Shown one piece after another: positions 40,924 through 57,675 of a stretch of 64,000 nt of DNA. Below the pieces are notes generated by a model, which saw only the letters and a list, made by a program, of their open reading frames with translations, did no database searches and was not told where the DNA came from. Both the position numbers and the translations under genes were made by a program. This DNA is from a virus, in the IMG/VR virus record IMGVR_UViG_3300042446_000849, positions 55,377-119,376 of that record; one strand, 5' to 3'. The first letter of the stretch is position 1. Each line of letters starts with the position of its first letter.

Positions 40924-41528
40924 AAACCTCCCATTCCACCGCTAGGTGGCGGAAATCCCAAATATTGTCTGTGGTCATATTTGTAATCTCTATACTTACC
41001 AAATTTATCTACATAATGTAGAAACGCTTGTGTTTGTCTTTCGCCTTTGTATTCATCTCGCCAATGTGGTAAGATATCACCCTTGTAAACAATAAGATCT
41101 CCTGGTTCTAAAAAGATAGGAAAACGCTCACCTTTTAAATTATCAAACCAAATTTCCCAAGGTTCAGGATCTACAGAAATATTAACAGTGGTTGAAAATT
41201 CGCAACTTGGTCTATCAGTATGTTCTGTCATTACTGCACCTTTATAATATATCCTCGCATAGGTATAAGTATTATAAAGTTTTTTACCTGTTATATCTTC
41301 CATCATTGGTAACATTTGTACAGATAATGTTTCGAAACAAGCCGCAGAATAATAAGCAAAACTATTTGTTACTTGGGTATCACCAAACATAAATTTGTTT
41401 TCCTCACTTTGACCACCCTTCATATAAGTTACTCTTTTTAGTAACTCAAATTCCAAATCTAGATGTTCTACTAATTGAGGTTGAATTGCGCCTCTTACAA
41501 CTTCATATAGATTGTCTTTAAATGACAT
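40920..41528 (-). CDS. 2-oxoglutarate/Fe(II) oxygenase
   Basis: A 202-residue dioxygenase. The metal triad is visible as HTD (TEHTDRPSCEFSTTVN) and a distal His in DILPHWRDEYKG, followed by RQTQAF with the 2-oxoglutarate-binding Arg. The substrate is unknown. It is the first gene of the ho1-bilin reductase operon, with overlapping starts and stops, so it may act on the same pathway or simply share control. The C-terminus ends in a Pro/Gly-rich tail (GFPPPSGGMGGL). Confidence 0.82.
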   Translation of the reverse strand: MSFKDNLYEVVRGAIQPQLVEHLDLEFELLKRVTYMKGGQSEENKFMFGDTQVTNSFAYYSAACFETLSVQMLPMMEDITGKKLYNTYTYARIYYKGAVMTEHTDRPSCEFSTTVNISVDPEPWEIWFDNLKGERFPIFLEPGDLIVYKGDILPHWRDEYKGERQTQAFLHYVDKFGKYRDYKYDHRQYLGFPPPSGGMGGL

Positions 41529-41541
41529 ATTATTCCTTAAT

Positions 41542-41577
41542 AAAAAAAGTAGGTTATTCTGTTACGAGGAAACCTAC
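41542..41577 (-). terminator. Rho-independent terminator of the tmRNA gene
   Basis: On the minus strand GTAGGTT (41577-41571), a 15-nt loop and AACCTAC (41555-41549) form a perfect 7-bp stem followed by seven T residues (41548-41542). It ends the tmRNA transcript just before the oxygenase start. Confidence 0.8.
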
Positions 41578-41595
41578 CGAAACCCTAAGCAGCGT

Positions 41596-41628
41596 TTAGG
41601 CTGCTAAAGCGAACTGTTCGTCGTTTGC
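41596..41628 (-). other. tmRNA tag-peptide reading frame
   Basis: The frame GCA AAC GAC GAA CAG, then TTC GCT TTA GCA GCC TAA, encodes ANDEQFALAA and stop; with the tRNA alanine the tag is A-ANDEQFALAA. The six bases before the resume codon are GTAAAT, with A at -4 as required in E. coli. The ending ALAA is a ClpXP-type degron. E. coli's encoded tag is ANDENYALAA. Confidence 0.9.
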
Positions 41629-41734
41629 ATTTACGTTTTTTGCTTCTTCGGCCGAGTTACCTCAACCCTGCGGGTTTCACATTCCCGAGCTGTCCACTCT
41701 GTTACTAATTGCCCTGTCGAAACTATTCAGGCCC

Positions 41735-41849
41735 CTCAAAAAGATTTTTCCATCTGTCTAGTGCTTCGAAGTAGCTGATCCAGACACATCCTTCACATCC
41801 TCTACCACAACACGTAGTTGGTTCTTGTGGCCTAGGATAAAAATCTTTT
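41735..41849 (-). other. tmRNA intervening segment with processing stem
   Basis: The 115 nt between the encoded CCA and the coding-piece 5' end. Its ends are complementary: AAAAGATTTTT (41849-41839) pairs with AAAAATCTTTT (41749-41739), extending the acceptor stem by 11 bp. The interior has a CCACAA/TTGTGG hairpin. The segment should be cut out by host RNases to give two RNA pieces. Confidence 0.75.
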
Positions 41850-41909
41850 TGGTGGACCTGGGGGGATTCGCACCCCCGTCCAGAACACCGTTCTCTTTGC
41901 TTCATACAG

Positions 41910-42119
41910 CTATAAAATATTAGTTAAATCTCCAACATGCACATATCCATCAACTTTTAGATTAGGATCGCTAATACACTCTAACAAGACATGCCTTTTA
42001 TCAACATCGTCAGGATGAAAGTGTTTGACAACAAATTCATGTCCTCGATATTTGTCATAAAAAGGTTTGAATGGTGGTTTGTAAACCTTATCTAAAAATT
42101 TAACTTTTTGTGATAACAT
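41910..42119 (-). CDS. Small hypothetical protein
   Basis: A 69-residue protein ([20 protein letters not shown]) with a later [14 protein letters not shown]. It looks like a small beta-barrel with basic N-terminus; no family recognised. It ends within the first bases of the tmRNA acceptor piece, so the tmRNA could be processed from the same transcript. Confidence 0.55.
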
Positions 42120-49640: not shown

Positions 49641-50966
49641 TTACTTTACAGATTTACTTGCCTCTGCCGTACTTTTATCTTCACGTAATTCAATAAATCT
49701 AGGTAAGAACAAACTCTCACTTTCGCCAGATCGTTCTTTAATACGTGCATTATAACGTACAGTAATAATTTTTCCTATTACTTTTTTGTCAAACTCTGCT
49801 CGTTGTTCATCCGAATAACCAGAGCCAACATTAACACGAATAACACCGTCACTTGTTTCGCATACTAGTGCGCCTAAGCGACCTTTGTTTTTACCAGTAC
49901 CTTCTTCCCAGTCAACTACCATCAGATCACATTCAAGTTCTCCCTTGAACTTAATTTGATCTTTAGATCGGCGATCTTCCCAAATACCTGTTTTGGATTT
50001 TAGAATAGTACCTTCTTGACCTTCTGCCAAGAACTTCTCAAAGATTTTTTGTGCTTCATATAAAGTATCTACTTGCTTAGTCCACACTAAATCTACATAA
50101 TGTCTAAATTGGTCAAAATTAGATTTAACGTGTGAAATACAATTATTGAGTTTGCCCAATCTAACATTGTAGGGCTCTTTGTCAATACCTTGTTTGAATG
50201 AAGCATATGGAATAGCATCCCACAATGTAGCTCGTACGTTTTCAGCTTCAGTATTACTCATTGTACCTTTAATTGCTTTAGATAAAATGCCGTTACCTGT
50301 TTGTCTATTAACTGGTTTACCTGCATAATCTGCAACTAACAATTCACCATCGAATACCATATCATCTTTATAGAATTCTGCCATCTTAATAAATGGTATT
50401 GGGAATGATGGATTAGGAATAGTTATTTCCTTACCATTGCGTGATCTAAATTCTACTACGCCGTCTTTGACGATTGCATTGAATCGCATTCCGTCGAGCT
50501 TGAGCTGACAAAGCGCGGGGAGTGCGATTTTGTCGACAAGCTTTTGGTCGTATCCAGAAGCCAACATAACTGGGTATGTCGAAATAATACCGGGCCAAAT
50601 TTTATTTGCTGTGGCTTCGGAGACTCCGCAACGGAGGTCTTTTGCAATAACACGCTCAATGATTTTGGCATTTTCTTTACTCAAGTTAGATAGAACATTA
50701 CGTAGATGTGAAATAGCATTGTTGCCTGTTACTGTTCGACTAGACAATAGTGATAAATCATCTAATGCCTGTTCCAAAGTTTTGCTCTCTGAAACAAAAT
50801 CGTAACTTGGAATTTTTCTAATGTAGAATTGAATGAACGGGTCAAGTGCAAGATAGAAAACTTGTTTAAGTGTTTTGTTATCTTTGTTTTTAACAAGAAT
50901 TGCTTCTTTAGCTAAACGGGAATTATCATTTGCTAATTGTTCAAATATATTATAGATCATACTCAT
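49641..50966 (-). CDS. 30: ATP-dependent DNA ligase (gp30-like)
   Basis: A 441-residue ligase. The adenylated lysine is K156 in CQLKLDGMRFN, with later motifs EFRSRNGKEI, FDGELLV, EGTILKSK and DQIKFKGELECD. Size fits T4 gp30 (487). It seals nicks in replication and repair. A consensus sigma-70 promoter lies 20-50 nt upstream, and TTTTTCTCC-type pyrimidines (GGAGAAAAA on the minus strand) give the ribosome site. Confidence 0.95.
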   Translation of the reverse strand: MSMIYNIFEQLANDNSRLAKEAILVKNKDNKTLKQVFYLALDPFIQFYIRKIPSYDFVSESKTLEQALDDLSLLSSRTVTGNNAISHLRNVLSNLSKENAKIIERVIAKDLRCGVSEATANKIWPGIISTYPVMLASGYDQKLVDKIALPALCQLKLDGMRFNAIVKDGVVEFRSRNGKEITIPNPSFPIPFIKMAEFYKDDMVFDGELLVADYAGKPVNRQTGNGILSKAIKGTMSNTEAENVRATLWDAIPYASFKQGIDKEPYNVRLGKLNNCISHVKSNFDQFRHYVDLVWTKQVDTLYEAQKIFEKFLAEGQEGTILKSKTGIWEDRRSKDQIKFKGELECDLMVVDWEEGTGKNKGRLGALVCETSDGVIRVNVGSGYSDEQRAEFDKKVIGKIITVRYNARIKERSGESESLFLPRFIELREDKSTAEASKSVK

Positions 50967-51491: not shown

Positions 51492-52259
51492 TTAAGGTTT
51501 CCTTTCAATATCATCTTCAATACAATTATCGCCATACTGGATTTCGATAATCTTCAATGGGACTTCAGCTTCATTGCAAAGCTGATGCCACTCTGTTTTG
51601 CCAATATGTAGACTTTCAAATTTCTCATAAGTCCCTTTTAGCTCAACATCTGTGCTTCGATTTAAACTATAAACCGTAGCTGTTCCTTCTGCAACGAACC
51701 AATGTTCTCCACGATCTTTATGTCGTTGCATGCTTAAACATTTACCAGGATCAACAGTAAGTTCTTTTAACTTTACTTCCTTGTCTTGTTCGTGTAGTAC
51801 TCGGTAATATCCCCAAACTCGATCTGTTTTTGGGGCTTTCCATTCTTGAAGAATCCAAGAACTAGAGTTCATTTTGTTTTCGCCACCTACACCGAATAAA
51901 AATTCTAGGTTATCATCTATAATATCCATTTCCGGGATATTCTCTTTTGTACGGTCTCCACCATTAGCAAAAATAATTTTTTCGTTAGGATATATCTCTC
52001 TAACTTTACGTATAGCATCCTTAGCAGAGTTATCATTGTCATCGAAGTTGATAACTCTGCCTATATCTTGTAAGGAAGCAACAATAGTTGCACGCTCTTC
52101 CCAGGGCATAAACGGCGAACCTTTTTTACGAGTCAACCATGCATCAGAATTTACACCCACAACTAACAAATCGCCTAATTTTTTAGCTGATTTAAAATAT
52201 TCGATATGACCAGAATGAATTGGATCGAAACCACCTGTTACTAAAACTATTGTTCTCAT
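51492..52259 (-). CDS. Cytidylyltransferase-cupin fusion
   Basis: A 255-residue two-domain protein. Residues 1-130 are a nucleotidyltransferase with GGFDPIHSGHIEYF (HxGH) and VVGVNSDAWLTRKKG, of the HldE/RfaE-2 cytidylyltransferase type. Residues about 145-255 are a cupin like the mannose-6-phosphate isomerase domain of ManC (VWGYYRVLHEQDKEVKLKEL; LSMQRHKDRGEHWFVAEGTA; EWHQLCN). It probably activates a sugar phosphate with CTP and isomerises it. Confidence 0.85.
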   Translation of the reverse strand: MRTIVLVTGGFDPIHSGHIEYFKSAKKLGDLLVVGVNSDAWLTRKKGSPFMPWEERATIVASLQDIGRVINFDDNDNSAKDAIRKVREIYPNEKIIFANGGDRTKENIPEMDIIDDNLEFLFGVGGENKMNSSSWILQEWKAPKTDRVWGYYRVLHEQDKEVKLKELTVDPGKCLSMQRHKDRGEHWFVAEGTATVYSLNRSTDVELKGTYEKFESLHIGKTEWHQLCNEAEVPLKIIEIQYGDNCIEDDIERKP

Positions 52260-52648
52260 TAGCGCCTCATACTTGAAATAGATTTTGCCTCATCATCACT
52301 AAAGATAGGCACAGCATTGGATTTGTGCATAGTACCAATACCGATAATGTTAGTGCCAGTATACTGAGGAATACCCTTAGTACAAACTGCACCACTATGA
52401 CCGGTGTCTAAACTCTTAATGTGATTGCTTGTTTGCCTGCCCGCAGGAGCAGATAAAGTATATGATAAAGACTCGAATGTCTTTTCTACTTTTTTCTTTT
52501 GAATTGCTTGCCCGTGTTGAGCAAGTACTTGTTGCCAGCTGCCATCAAGGTCACGAGCACGCTTTGCTTCTTCAGCAGAACGATACTTGTGTTTGCCTTT
52601 TTTCTTACCGTTTGTAGATAACCAGGGTCCAACAATATGCATTGTCAT
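52259..52648 (-). CDS. Conserved phage protein of unknown function
   Basis: A 129-residue basic protein. HIVGPWLSTNGKKKGKHKYR at the N-terminus and GTNIIGIGTMHKSNAVPIFS near the end are strongly conserved among T4-like phages. The role is unknown. It overlaps the cytidylyltransferase start by one base and has a consensus promoter 24-52 nt upstream. Confidence 0.75.
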   Translation of the reverse strand: MTMHIVGPWLSTNGKKKGKHKYRSAEEAKRARDLDGSWQQVLAQHGQAIQKKKVEKTFESLSYTLSAPAGRQTSNHIKSLDTGHSGAVCTKGIPQYTGTNIIGIGTMHKSNAVPIFSDDEAKSISSMRR

Positions 52649-52671: not shown

Positions 52672-52700
52672 ATTATAACATCTTTTGACGATGTTGTCAA
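52672..52700 (-). promoter_or_regulatory. Consensus sigma-70 promoter
   Basis: TTGACA (52700-52695), 17-nt spacer ending in GATGT, TATAAT (52677-52672), upstream of the gene starting at 52648. The stop codon of the proposed frameshift extension (52699-52697) lies within this -35. Confidence 0.8.
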
Positions 52701-52851
52701 GTCTTATCAAAAGCCCTAAATTTATGTTCAAGAAACATTCTACTATCGTGATTAGGATCGTCGGGAATCGTTCCTTGATCTGACCATTGTTCTTTTGGCA
52801 CAGAAACTGGTTTTTCTTTGAACCAGGTCAGGATGCGTTCAAAGAATCCGT
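52697..52851 (-). other. Probable -1 frame extension of the 163-residue protein
   Basis: This frame encodes 51 further residues beginning DGFFERILTWFKEKPVSVP and ending EHKFRAFDKT, then TGA. It has no ATG, GTG or TTG between the preceding in-frame stop (TAA, at the AATAAG codons near 52886) and the slip site, so it can only be reached by frameshifting, apart from a late internal ATG that would leave 13 residues. The composition (aromatic, Lys, Pro) is protein-like. Confidence 0.65.
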
Positions 52852-52873
52852 CTTTTTTGCCTTCGGTTCTCCC
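52814..52873 (-). promoter_or_regulatory. dnaX-like programmed -1 frameshift cassette
   Basis: On the minus strand: GGGAG (52873-52869), 10 nt, slippery A AAA AAG (52858-52852, in frame as GCA AAA AAG), 5-nt spacer, then TTCTTTGAAC (52846-52837), 13-nt loop, GTTCAAAGAA (52823-52814), a perfect 10-bp stem. The zero-frame stop lies in the loop. Order and spacings match the E. coli dnaX frameshift signal. Confidence 0.75.
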
Positions 52874-53319
52874 AATGGCGGAATGATTGGCTTATTAGGC
52901 AATAGACCAGGAAAAGCTTCTCTTACCAAATCTTCTTTCAATGATTTGTATTTAGTTTGTAGTTTTCTATCTTTAGCTAGACACACTGCTTCAGCTTCTG
53001 TCCAATGAATGCCTTCAAGCAATTGAATAAACAACTGCTCTTTTCTAGCGCGAGTCAAATTAACATCATTTTGTAACCAAATATAAAAACGTCTAAATTC
53101 TACATAAAGATTTGACTCAGAATAACCTGCAGGTATAGATGTATCCTTTTTGTAAGGAGGCTCACCTTCAGGTAAACTCATTTTAACATTTGGATCAAAA
53201 TTAATTTGCAACATCCCTTTTAGAATAGGATGGTCATATGCTCTTAATGTTTTAATCTTGGCTTCTTTGGAGCCAGCCTTTTCAACTTCATCAAAAATCT
53301 GTGGGATAGATGTTTTCAC
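52828..53319 (-). CDS. Conserved T4-like phage protein (DUF6433-like), GTG start
   Basis: A 163-residue protein; ILKGMLQINFDPNVKMSLPE, then LYVEFRRFYIWLQND and RKEQLFIQLLEGIHWTEAEA are conserved in T4-like phages of aquatic bacteria (DUF6433 by recollection). The start is GTG at 53319 with GAGGAA seven bases before. The 3' end carries a frameshift cassette that would give a 207-residue form. Function unknown. Confidence 0.75.
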   Translation of the reverse strand: MKTSIPQIFDEVEKAGSKEAKIKTLRAYDHPILKGMLQINFDPNVKMSLPEGEPPYKKDTSIPAGYSESNLYVEFRRFYIWLQNDVNLTRARKEQLFIQLLEGIHWTEAEAVCLAKDRKLQTKYKSLKEDLVREAFPGLLPNKPIIPPLGEPKAKKTDSLNAS

Positions 53320-53320
53320 T

Positions 53321-54202
53321 TTAAAATTCCTCTATAACTTCTAGCATGTTCTTCATTTTATGTTCAACAAAGAAAGTTAATAATTTACTTTTATCTTTTG
53401 TCGGCTTATCGGTATAAGTATTTATAATAGATTCTTTAATTGAAGTTGGGATGCAATCAAAACTAACTAGTTTGCGATTACGCTCATAATTTGTTTTGAA
53501 CTCAGCATCCTGTGGCATAGCATCAAAATCTTTATACCATATATCCAATTTATCTTGTCTAATAGCTTTTTGTCTTGTACCGGTTACAATACTATCATCT
53601 GCAGAAAGAACATTGGGGATACCATCACCCTTGTCACCTCGAATAATATGTTCAAACAAATATTTTTCTGGGCTAATATCTGATTTTACATATTTCTTTT
53701 GAATAGGTGAAAATTGTTTAACATTCTCATATTTTTGCAATTGAATAAAGTCATGATCGCCTGATAATACTAAGAATGGTTTTGGTTCTGAAAACAATAC
53801 ATTACTAGTATCATTTGTCTGAGACCATTCTGCCAATACTGCAATCACGTCATCTGCTTCTGCGCCATCGACATTAATTACTTTATATGGGAAGAATACA
53901 TCAATCTCACTCCTAATAAGATTCAATGCTTCAAAAATTTGTTTCCAATCTAAGCCAGATGCTTCACGAGCTTTTTTCCTACCGGCCTTATAGAACTTAA
54001 ATGCTTCTCTGCGCCAATAATTTTGATTGTCGCAAGCAATCACAATCTCGCCAAATTCTTTACCGAATTTTTGTTTATAGCTTCTAATAGAATTTAGAAT
54101 CATATGACGCAGAAGTGGTACTTGCACTTCGATGTCATTGCGGCTGCCAATCTCCATCATAAGATTAGAAATGGCTGTTTGATTAAAGTCAACTACGATC
54201 AT
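53321..54202 (-). CDS. rnh: 5'-3' exonuclease/RNase H (T4 Rnh type)
   Basis: A 293-residue FEN-like nuclease that removes RNA primers. Acidic metal ligands are visible in MIVVDFNQTA, VINVDGAEADDVIAVL and LVLSGDHDFIQLQ, and the helix-turn RGDKGDGIPN is the usual H3TH signature. Size equals T4 RNase H (305). Its position near dsbA recalls the T4 33-dsbA-rnh order. Confidence 0.92.
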   Translation of the reverse strand: MIVVDFNQTAISNLMMEIGSRNDIEVQVPLLRHMILNSIRSYKQKFGKEFGEIVIACDNQNYWRREAFKFYKAGRKKAREASGLDWKQIFEALNLIRSEIDVFFPYKVINVDGAEADDVIAVLAEWSQTNDTSNVLFSEPKPFLVLSGDHDFIQLQKYENVKQFSPIQKKYVKSDISPEKYLFEHIIRGDKGDGIPNVLSADDSIVTGTRQKAIRQDKLDIWYKDFDAMPQDAEFKTNYERNRKLVSFDCIPTSIKESIINTYTDKPTKDKSKLLTFFVEHKMKNMLEVIEEF

Positions 54203-54213
54203 GATATATTTTC

Positions 54214-55161
54214 TTAAGTTAGTTTTACTGTTACACTATTTGTTGGCGGCGTTACTTCAGTACTGACAGATGCAATGACATTACCGTAAATATCATAATA
54301 TGCTGCACCCGATTCATTTTGTTGTTGAATCGCTGCCGCATAAACTGACAATGTTTGTTTAACATTTGATTTTAATGTCAGATCAAATACTTGATTACCG
54401 CAACCTGATAACAAATTATAAACAATCTGTGTAATTTGAGAAGTTACTGCACTTCTAATTGCTGCCTTGTTTACTATTGTATTGAAGTTTAAATTAAATC
54501 CGTCGATTGTTGTTTTAAATGTTGCCAAAGCAGTAACTACATCAGCAATACCCAATCCACTTGTTAATTTTGCGGTAATAGCATCAATTAAGTCTTTGGT
54601 TTTTAATGATTCTGTTAATGCTTTAAGGTCAATATCAGGAACGTCACCGTTAGGTGTACATCCACTGCCCAATAAATCTTGTAAAGAACAACCACCGGCA
54701 TTAGCTGACCCTGAAGCTGGTCCTACTCCCGACAATCTATCAGTATTTGTTTTAAAATCTTGTAATGCCGTTTTATTAGCAACAAGAGCCGCTTTTTGAG
54801 CAGTTAGTGTTGCATCGCCTGGACTTGAAACAAGACCATCATCAACAGTCGCTATCCTAGCATCAATGCCTGCAATAGCAGCGGTGATAGATGTACCAAC
54901 TGGATTTTGGTATAGTTGCCCGCCAATTTTTTCCATGACATCTGAAAAATCACTAGCAGCCGCCTGCGCCGCATTTATAGTTGCGGTTACTTGATCAATT
55001 AGTTGTTTAATTTCCAATAACCCAGTTGGTATCAAACCACCTTGAGCGGCCTGTGCTTTGCCTTGGCTCAACTGAGAATAAAGTTGTTGTAATGGATTGC
55101 CGCCTATCTGAGATAAAATAATCTTGATAAGCGAGCAATATGTTAATTTTAACACTGACAT
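54214..55161 (-). CDS. Unknown helical protein
   Basis: A 315-residue protein rich in Ala, Leu and Gln with long helices (LLEIKQLIDQVTATINAAQA) and two small Cys-containing stretches (GGCSLQDLLGSGC; LLSGCGNQVFD). It resembles proteins of unknown function in marine T4-like phages; a virion role is possible. No catalytic motif. Confidence 0.6.
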   Translation of the reverse strand: MSVLKLTYCSLIKIILSQIGGNPLQQLYSQLSQGKAQAAQGGLIPTGLLEIKQLIDQVTATINAAQAAASDFSDVMEKIGGQLYQNPVGTSITAAIAGIDARIATVDDGLVSSPGDATLTAQKAALVANKTALQDFKTNTDRLSGVGPASGSANAGGCSLQDLLGSGCTPNGDVPDIDLKALTESLKTKDLIDAITAKLTSGLGIADVVTALATFKTTIDGFNLNFNTIVNKAAIRSAVTSQITQIVYNLLSGCGNQVFDLTLKSNVKQTLSVYAAAIQQQNESGAAYYDIYGNVIASVSTEVTPPTNSVTVKLT

Positions 55162-55165
55162 ATAG

Positions 55166-56290
55166 TTACCTCATAATTCGTAAAATGATTGTATCTATAT
55201 TTATCCTACCATTAACCGCTTGTTCTTTAGCCTTAATATCATTGATGTATGTTCGCAACTTAACTTTGCCTGCACCCATTAGATCTTTAATTTGTTCTGC
55301 AGGTTTACGTAGTGTCTTTTGCTTAGATTTATCTGGTGACCAATTTTGCAAAGCCGACCCCTTAACAGTCATACCTTTTGTAGACTCAGACGTATAAACT
55401 GCTAGCTTACGAGTTTTAGTATTAAATAACCAGACTTGTTCTGCACCTACAAGATCAATTGCTTTTGCAGATGTCAACCCAAGTTCTTCATCTTTAACTT
55501 TATACTTAAGAGATTTAATCTGTGTGACTGCAGGCTTTTCTCTTACTGCTCGAGGTTTGCGATTTGCTTTCTTAAATTGTGAGTATTTCTCGCAATCAGC
55601 AATAAATGCCTCAAATAGCTTAACTAAGTTCTTTAGTTTGCGTTTATTGATATTAGAATAACCCTCAATCGTTTGAGAATCTTTAGTATCAACGACTGCA
55701 TTATATTGATCTAATTTTTTCTGTGCCCATTCTTTAATGTCTGAAACATATGGTCCAGGAATTTGATTAGATTTTAAATTATTGTATAAATTAATCTCAA
55801 CATCATTCTTAATGAAGTCATCAATCAATCCTTCGACTTCGCCAATATACTCAGAAGTCTTTTCCTTCATTACATCTTGAATAGAAGGTTTTTTAACTGT
55901 GCCAATAGGCGTTACAACCTTAGCAACAGACTTTTTATTGTAGAATCTGTTTTTGCCTAACCGAATCAATTCATCAAGTGCATTATTAAAACCTTGCATA
56001 TGAGTAGGTGATAATTTTGCGCCTTGAAGAACTAGTCTAGCAACCCAACCATACGTAATATGAACATCTTTCTCTTCAATTTCAGAAAAATATTTCGCAT
56101 CTTCTGGTCTATTATGTTTAATATAATATTCGTAATACTTGTAAGAGTCAGCACGAGTCTTTTCTGCAGAATACCAATTATTAATACGCATCAAGTCTGC
56201 GTTATAGTTTACAGAAATAGGATCAAGGTGCGAAACCGTAGGTTCCGAACCATATGTGCGACTCAAATCATGTTCACGTTTAGATGCCAA
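55166..56290 (-). CDS. Conserved phage protein of unknown function, TTG start
   Basis: A 374-residue protein. LIRLGKNRFYNKKSVAKVVT in the middle and VWLFNTKTRKLAVYTSEST near residue 300 belong to a family found next to recombination genes in aquatic T4-like phages; role unknown. The start is TTG at 56290, with AGGGGA six bases upstream and an 11-base overlap with the gene above. The C-terminal half is basic and lysine-rich. Confidence 0.7.
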   Translation of the reverse strand: MASKREHDLSRTYGSEPTVSHLDPISVNYNADLMRINNWYSAEKTRADSYKYYEYYIKHNRPEDAKYFSEIEEKDVHITYGWVARLVLQGAKLSPTHMQGFNNALDELIRLGKNRFYNKKSVAKVVTPIGTVKKPSIQDVMKEKTSEYIGEVEGLIDDFIKNDVEINLYNNLKSNQIPGPYVSDIKEWAQKKLDQYNAVVDTKDSQTIEGYSNINKRKLKNLVKLFEAFIADCEKYSQFKKANRKPRAVREKPAVTQIKSLKYKVKDEELGLTSAKAIDLVGAEQVWLFNTKTRKLAVYTSESTKGMTVKGSALQNWSPDKSKQKTLRKPAEQIKDLMGAGKVKLRTYINDIKAKEQAVNGRINIDTIILRIMR

Positions 56291-56597
56291 TTTTATCCCC
56301 TATTGTAAATTTAATTTCTCTGATAGAATCATACCTACACGATCGCCATTCGTTTTTCTCTAAATCAAAAACAGAAAGCACGTCGTCATTTTCTTTTCTG
56401 ACGCGATCTGTTTTCTTTTCTAGAATCGGTAACGATGATTCGATAAGAGTACACTTCATTTTTCTTATTGTATCATCTTTCTTCAAGAAAGTCAAATTCA
56501 CAATGTCCGTTCTAAGAACGCCTTGTAACCATTCCCTAAATAACTTCTGTTCTTTCGAATCGGCTTCTTTATACCAAGTTGGGGATTCTAAATTCAT
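56280..56597 (-). CDS. SH3-like small protein (DUF2693-type)
   Basis: A 105-residue protein: LTFLKKDDTIRKMKCTLIES and LSVFDLEKNEWRSCRYDSIR match the small beta-barrel family DUF2693, common in T4-like phages. It overlaps the glycosyltransferase-like gene by 29 nt. Function unknown. Confidence 0.75.
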   Translation of the reverse strand: MNLESPTWYKEADSKEQKLFREWLQGVLRTDIVNLTFLKKDDTIRKMKCTLIESSLPILEKKTDRVRKENDDVLSVFDLEKNEWRSCRYDSIREIKFTIGDKIGI

Positions 56598-57675
56598 TTT
56601 GTACGGCTTTCAAAATAGTTTCCACGCGATTATCGACATGGTAATTGTTCATAATTAAATTGTGACGAGCTAAAATGCCGTCTTTACCGGTTTCATCAAA
56701 TATTTTATTTGCTTTTTCAGTAATTGGTAATGGATTTTGAATATCTTCATAATCATAGAATAAAATATAATCATGCATATTAACAATATCTCTATGATAT
56801 TTTAATGAGCGAGGAACGATTGGAATTCCTCCAGTAATTAAAGCATCGTATATTCGAATTGGCGCATCATTCAATACTGGAACAATCCAATGTGCTTTAT
56901 GACTGCACCATTCGGTAAATCGATCCAACATATCTCGGCTATGATAAGAACCATCTACTAATTTTACATTTGGCAATGTTTTATGTAGTGTGGTTAAATT
57001 CTTTTGACGTAATGGGAATTGCGGATATTCAATGTGTGTTCCTAATGGATCATTGCTACGATCTGTGTCTGTAATAAGATTTAAATGTTCTTTTAAATAT
57101 TCTTTAGACCATTGAATAGTACCAGACCCAACCGGGCCTGCCATGATATTATTAAATCTTGATAATGGTTCAAGATTATCAGAGTGTGTTGGTACGTAAA
57201 GATCACATGACGCAGCTAGCATACCTGACAGAGCAAACCAGTGGTGGTTATCAAAATCCCAAATAACGAATGCAGATGTAGGTGAATTTAAATACAATTC
57301 GATAAAACGATTTAAATTATTATCAGTCATCACATTGTTATTACTTAAAATAACAACTGAGTTCTCAAATACCTTTGGTGCCGAATTCATATTAAAGAAG
57401 TGCATATTTGCACCTTTTGGTTTATATGTAACAGCATGGAAAATATGGTCAGTTAAGTAAACTTGTCCTGAAAAGTTTTTGCTTAAATTTTCAGCAAGGT
57501 TTCTTACTCGAATATTTTTCAAGCGAACCATATCATAAATTAAATCTTGTTGAGATTGAGCACTAGTTCCAGCAATTGACTGGGCAATGTTATTTGCAAT
57601 GCCATTGGTAGAGCTAATGTAATCAACTAGATTTGTTGGTGGCGGCGGTGTATCCATATTATAAAATACTGACAT
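56569..57675 (-). CDS. Glycosyltransferase-like protein
   Basis: A 368-residue protein. NDAPIRIYDALITGGIPIVP with later YHRDIVNMHDYILFYDYED is the donor-binding pattern of GT-B-type transferases (the Glu/Asp-x7-Gly-x-Pro loop region). The N-terminal half has a Rossmann-like segment (VYLTDHIFHAVTYK; VVILSNNNVMTDNN). It could glycosylate virion protein or DNA; the sugar cluster supplies likely donors. Call at family level only. Confidence 0.65.
   Translation of the reverse strand: MSVFYNMDTPPPPTNLVDYISSTNGIANNIAQSIAGTSAQSQQDLIYDMVRLKNIRVRNLAENLSKNFSGQVYLTDHIFHAVTYKPKGANMHFFNMNSAPKVFENSVVILSNNNVMTDNNLNRFIELYLNSPTSAFVIWDFDNHHWFALSGMLAASCDLYVPTHSDNLEPLSRFNNIMAGPVGSGTIQWSKEYLKEHLNLITDTDRSNDPLGTHIEYPQFPLRQKNLTTLHKTLPNVKLVDGSYHSRDMLDRFTEWCSHKAHWIVPVLNDAPIRIYDALITGGIPIVPRSLKYHRDIVNMHDYILFYDYEDIQNPLPITEKANKIFDETGKDGILARHNLIMNNYHVDNRVETILKAVQNEFRIPNLV

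Follow-up and report, generated by a model that had tools for sequence, protein, structure and literature searches.

In a T4-like phage, the gene for a DUF6433 protein appears to carry a conserved -1 programmed ribosomal frameshift of the dnaX type, and the protein itself is predicted to adopt the fold of the DNA-binding domain of a DNA ligase. We place the probability of this combined reading, which does not extend to the role of the protein, at about 0.85. The gene lies in the window analysed here, a stretch of 64,000 nucleotides (positions 55,377 to 119,376 of IMG/VR virus record IMGVR_UViG_3300042446_000849).

The whole signal is on the minus strand, near the 3' end of the DUF6433 gene (52828–53319), which begins with GTG at 53319, encodes 163 amino acids in the zero frame and is found just downstream of a T4-type RNase H gene. 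A Shine–Dalgarno (SD)-like stimulator, GGGAG (52869–52873), stands 10 nt 5' of the slippery heptamer A AAA AAG (52852–52858), which is read as GCA AAA AAG in the zero frame. Five nucleotides past the heptamer begins a perfect, A+U-rich stem of 10 bp, whose 5' arm TTCTTTGAAC (52837–52846) and 3' arm GTTCAAAGAA (52814–52823) enclose a 13-nt loop (52824–52836) holding the zero-frame stop, TGA (52828–52830). The -1 frame extension (52697–52858) consists of two lysines, 51 further residues and a TGA at 52699–52697. The predicted products are thus a protein of 163 residues, terminated in the zero frame, and one of 207 residues made after the slip. The elements and their spacing, the 51-residue frame and the two product lengths had all been put forward in an initial annotation made from the sequence, and each was recovered here on the minus strand. 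Its further remark that the -1 ORF has no usual start codon needs qualification: GTG and ATG are present, but both are downstream of the zero-frame stop and neither is conserved.

The RNase H gene (rnh; 53321–54202, minus strand; PF02739/PF09293, phrog_107) is immediately upstream of the DUF6433 gene, and a gene matching phrog_27048 (52259–52648, minus strand) immediately downstream. Upstream of rnh are genes for proteins of 315 (54214–55161) and 368 (56569–57675) amino acids, both on the minus strand and without a PHROG match. A promoter-like site, TTGACA-N17-TATAAT (52672–52700, minus strand), starts in the region of the -1 stop and faces the downstream gene. It is of sigma-70 type, matches the consensus at 12 of 12 positions and has TG ahead of the second box. 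Most homologues have a TATAAT-containing sequence past the -1 stop, and in many the -35 box would overlap the FDK codons of the extension, so that gene end and promoter are layered.

Homologues were collected by three scans of IMG/VR, one with the 163-residue protein (80 loci), one with the conserved tail motif (80 loci, on contigs partly shared with the first) and one with a divergent member (19 loci). After removal of duplicates these gave 66 distinct sequences. Every one of them has A AAA AAA/G in the correct frame, with AAG in 33 and AAA in 33, whereas of the 622 Lys-Lys codon pairs elsewhere in these loci 5.8% match the motif. The distance from heptamer to zero-frame stop is exactly 28 nt in 59 of the 66, the rest having 31, 34, 40, 46, 61 or 73 nt. 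In many members the -1 frame opens merely 3 nt ahead of the heptamer, the previous -1 stop directly preceding the slip site, so that the frame is open only from there onward.

An alignment of homologues had been proposed in the initial annotation as the check on its reading, and it yields the A6R run and the -1 ORF in 66 of 66 sequences and a 3' stem in almost all. Seven A residues at the run, which it had taken as the mark of an assembly error, do occur in half of the relatives, but as A AAA AAA, by a wobble change of G to A and not by insertion. Homologues lacking the -1 ORF, its other ground for doubt, were not encountered inside the extension-bearing clade (66 distinct sequences), and the related sequences included none in which the two frames are fused into one ORF. 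A AAA AAA is a weaker slip site than A AAA AAG in E. coli (PMC5009743), and its presence in half of the relatives was counted against the frameshift reading.

Past the zero-frame stop, all 66 sequences encode a common peptide in the -1 frame. This tail starts with the consensus K K x G F F E R I L T x F K, continues through a variable acidic and proline linker and ends with K E x W S D x G x x P x D P x Y D x R x F x x x x Y R A F D K Y, as in the example EQWSDQGTIPDDPNHDSR. Its W and R are present in 66 of 66 sequences, D in 65 and G in 64, and A is also invariant, while the codons for G, D, P and R vary synonymously. Read in the -1 frame, the tail has a pN/pS of 0.52; the two remaining frames give 0.89 and 1.27. 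These values are rough because pS is near saturation, but they leave the frame preference clear; the upstream zero-frame gene has a pN/pS of 0.25. The new frame is under selection at the protein level, and at every intact locus with an extension this extension is in the -1 frame relative to DUF6433.

The signal had originally been described as adding a domain. The 51 residues are indeed conserved, but the word domain is generous, as AlphaFold2 on the extension alone returned a low-confidence model (pLDDT 66) with two short helices, in which the tail looks mostly disordered. When the tail was sought in other proteins by tblastn over 50,697 phage records, one chance match (Ochrobactrum phage H61) was obtained; there was no match in Pfam and a single PHROG match, at E 0.055, among 17 members. 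A match to PCNA in the PDB was dismissed as chance, involving a 16-residue amphipathic helix with a per-domain E of about 290. As far as these searches reach, the tail is without credible known relatives.

The stimulatory elements flanking the heptamer are conserved to different degrees. Segments of 46 nt taken 3' of the heptamer had a median folding z of -2.5 against dinucleotide shuffles, with 26 of 42 below -2, whilst at five control offsets in the same gene region the medians fell between -0.84 and +0.06. When the structure of the window was imposed on 41 sequences, 85% of cells were paired, compared with 26–56% when the partners were slid by 1–3 columns. Pairs in which both sides had changed were no more numerous than in shuffles, and two of five covariation measures failed to beat shuffles, leaving moderate support from covariation for the 3' stem-loop. 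The stem core, CUUUGAA/UUCAAAG, doubles as coding sequence for the conserved FFE and FK residues; its central pairs are invariant for this reason, and true compensatory changes are few. The weak RNAalifold consensus on the full set (-1.36 kcal/mol) is explained by the lower stem, which differs between lineages. In divergent members the stem has another sequence and a hairpin is still found at about the same place (loci L113, L078 and L079); that of L113 is ACCCUU/AAGGGU and that of L078 GGCUUC/GAAGCC with a bulge. Predicted hairpins of differing sequence at a like position are counted as better evidence for the stem than pair covariation.

An SD-like core 8–13 nt upstream of the heptamer was found in 38 of the 66 homologues, far more often than at 81 in-frame control positions, where its frequency averaged 7% and nowhere exceeded 34%. 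The element is present in the window and absent from about 40% of homologues. A 5' SD-like stimulator is a feature of dnaX and is optional in the -1 frameshift class.

Ribosomes translating the DUF6433 mRNA would reach GCA AAA AAG and be held up there by the 3' stem-loop and, in many relatives, by the SD-like sequence about 10 nt 5' of it. A fraction of them would slip into the -1 frame and produce the 207-residue form with its 51-residue tail, whilst those that do not slip would stop at the TGA in the loop and release the 163-residue form. That frameshifting occurs in the host, and with what efficiency, we infer from the sequence. In E. coli dnaX, efficient -1 slippage is brought about by A_AAA_AAG together with an SD-like sequence on its 5' side and a hairpin closely following it (PMC5009743). 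The likeness to this gene, the source of tau and gamma, extends to the SD-like element 10 nt 5', the A_AAA_AAG heptamer, the stem-loop about 5 nt 3' and the production of two forms with a common N-terminal part. The gene and protein are nevertheless different ones, the DUF6433 stem is rich in A+U, A_AAA_AAA replaces A_AAA_AAG in half of the relatives and the SD-like element is not universal. Furthermore, frameshifting in E. coli dnaX leads to the shorter form whereas in DUF6433 it would lead to the longer, although a few other dnaX genes have been suggested to make a longer product by frameshifting (PMC5009743).

The longer protein could also be made from mRNAs of altered length if RNA polymerase added or dropped an A at the run. 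Such transcriptional slippage at poly-A is known in some dnaX genes, including that of Thermus with its nine A (PMC3711429, PMC5009743), and the slip site is an A run in all DUF6433 homologues. The run is, however, of 6 or 7 A in the 66 sequences and never longer, which is under the at least eight typical of transcriptional slippage sites (PMC3711429). The enriched RNA stem about 5 nt to the 3' side and the SD-like element act on ribosomes, and the direction of the frame change is constant, all of which makes transcriptional slippage improbable. Translational coupling, by which the -1 ORF would be a separate small gene on which ribosomes reinitiate close to the zero-frame stop (at an overlapping CTG or TTG, for instance), is slightly less probable again. 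The zero-frame stop and the -1 ORF do overlap, and in some relatives a TTG or GTG lies at -1 or at +5 to +8 relative to the stop, but the position of the start codon is not conserved and seven homologues have no ATG, GTG or TTG in the stretch at all. Conservation of the tail sets in directly after the heptamer, in the FF, F and K columns, and reinitiation gives the heptamer itself no reason to be invariant.

It might also be argued that the letters conserved past the stop are regulatory DNA, belonging to the promoter of the next gene, and not coding sequence. The perfect TTGACA-N17-TATAAT which begins in the -1 stop region speaks for this, as do the FDK codons that many relatives have where a -35 box would be. 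The promoter spans just the last few codons of the tail, however, whilst the block from W to R is at least 30 nt upstream of it and varies synonymously with its amino acids kept; indels, moreover, leave the -1 frame open in all homologues. We consider this explanation the least likely of those that invoke a biological cause. The homopolymer run at the junction is the kind of place where an assembly or sequencing error might split one gene into two frames, yet the same frame relation recurs in the 66 distinct sequences, which come from many metagenomes, and none of the copies found is fused in frame. An error at one site cannot account for this, and the explanation is rejected as having a negligible probability.

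The carriers of the extension are mostly uncultured T4-like phages. In a maximum-likelihood tree of 48 DUF6433 proteins, all 20 extension-bearing rows formed one group with support of 98/98, set off by a long branch. A single gain at the base of the clade would be the simplest reading, and no loss of the extension was seen among clade members. The DUF6433 proteins of cyanophages and of Pelagibacter, Methylophilales and Sinorhizobium phages (T4-GC 313) belong to the same family, several being encoded directly downstream of rnh, but the A6R-linked -1 extension is absent from those examined (including L082–L091). Three other environmental DUF6433 clades (L187–L252) have no matching -1 extension either; L191 and L196 do have an A AAA AAG, but it is not followed by an extension, and their next gene lies in the +1 frame.

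Other genes are met at the same gene end. In marine cyanophages (L083, 1917–2204; L084, 1905–2162) the gene that follows, T4-GC 314, begins before DUF6433 ends and is likewise in the -1 frame; it has its own start and a sequence unrelated to the tail. In L236, L237, L244, L245, L247 and L249 the gene end is overlapped or adjoined by the reading frame of another small charged protein, which in most cases has its own start. The end of the DUF6433 gene has therefore attracted partners, adjacent or overlapping, repeatedly and in several clades.

The 119-kb record to which the window belongs is that of a T4-like phage with its own gp23, gp33 and gp59. Its major capsid protein is closest, at 62.6%, to that of Methylophilales phage Melnitz, and psbA, a sign of cyanophages, was not found in four genomes. 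A tmRNA gene (41505–41973, minus strand; tag ANDEQFALAA), matched by both the beta_tmRNA and tmRNA_permuted models of Rfam, is of the betaproteobacterial type, and a two-piece tmRNA has been described in Melnitz (PMC9004378). A betaproteobacterial host is a reasonable guess; comparison with genome contigs gave no close relative and hence no clue to the host from that source.

The base protein belongs to DUF6433 (PF20025; E 1e-28, 100 bits against a curated cut-off of 38.9) and to phrog_461 (E 7e-39), both Pfam and PHROGs giving a family label with no functional annotation. An AlphaFold2 model built from 39 homologues (pLDDT 85, pTM 0.77) resembles the N-terminal DNA-binding domain of T4 DNA ligase. 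The top Foldseek matches of the model were to T4 ligase (probability 1.0, E 2e-3), and the best by VIA-align was the DNA-binding domain of the same enzyme (Z 14.4 over 129 residues, 3.6 Å), at a Z, near 14, that is close to the reach of unrelated helical models. Each of the 50 entries among the VIA matches listed was a DNA ligase or a complex containing one, and phages, bacteria, archaea and eukaryotes were all represented. In a library of viral structures the nearest were DUF6433-like proteins, followed by phage ligases. At the level of profiles, hhalign against nine phage ligase N-terminal domains gave 97.7% over 131 columns, and a PDB profile search had T4 DNA ligase among four weak matches.

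The likeness to the T4 domain (gp30; PDB 5wfy, 6dt1) lies in the predicted fold, across some 130 residues, and in a remote match between sequence profiles. The common part of the two forms (about residues 1–142) is best explained as a stand-alone relative of the T4-type ligase DNA-binding domain. The ligase-domain motifs (T)GNAAI and RDLxCG are not kept in the DUF6433 protein, and DNA binding would not be implied by the shared fold. Nor can the protein be a ligase, because at 163 or 207 residues it is without the nucleotidyltransferase (KxDG) and OB domains. The same phage, in contrast to this stand-alone domain, also encodes a full-length ATP-dependent DNA ligase (49641–50966, minus strand; phrog_114, E 1e-127), the N-terminal domain of which resembles DUF6433, and three large relatives have a complete ligase gene as well. 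In the cyanophage genomes DSL-LC02 and DSL-LC03 the DUF6433 gene is labelled 'DNA ligase' (in Synechococcus phage DSL-LC03, L082, OR003938.1, 1477–1923); the catalytic domains are absent. Identity with the gp33 co-activator or the gp59 helicase loader was rejected, both being found elsewhere in the phage of the window and in three related genomes. In T4 ligase the contact with the clamp is made by a loop in the nucleotidyltransferase part and not by the DNA-binding domain (PMC6698739, PMC12121391), and clamp binding of DUF6433 is therefore not inferable from T4 ligase.

Among the -1 frameshifts annotated in phages, the majority belong to genes for tail assembly or other virion components. DUF6433 has in common with the tail assembly chaperones of the lambda G/GT type that a -1 slip late in a short ORF would yield a C-terminally extended form, but it differs in its place beside RNase H and near a ligase gene and in its predicted ligase-domain fold. 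A tail chaperone frameshift was rejected, there being no match to a tail chaperone family and no such neighbourhood. DUF6433 was not mentioned in the literature searched, in keeping with the initial impression that the family is undescribed, and no description of its frameshift was found there. Frameshifting is not mentioned in the main text of the T4-like cyanophage paper of Sullivan et al. 2010 (PMC3037559), nor in the Melnitz paper (PMC9004378). Mechanisms of this kind have been described before; what is apparently new is the gene, its tail and its setting.

A role in DNA replication or repair, like the partner involved, is speculative and on balance less likely than not; as a best guess, the DUF6433 protein might be an accessory factor of lagging-strand maturation or of nick handling, binding DNA or a partner in the replisome. 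The most likely reading overall is that frameshifting sets the ratio of the short to the tailed form of such an accessory protein. Through its amphipathic helix and conserved C-terminal peptide, the tail would anchor a constant share of the molecules to a partner. The dnaX strategy is to obtain two replisome subunits from one gene. It is attractive, though somewhat more doubtful still, to consider that two DUF6433 forms held at a ratio fixed by frameshifting, the tailed one docking on the replisome, may be an independently arisen phage counterpart of this strategy.

The probable DUF6433 frameshift lies in a neighbourhood of DNA metabolism, and a diverse clade of T4-like phages has retained it without exception. 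Standard gene calling drops the C-terminal module which it would add to the protein. For a family present in hundreds of cyanophage records, the predicted stand-alone ligase DNA-binding-domain fold would be a first structural identity, and the role of DUF6433 in phage replication thereby becomes testable.
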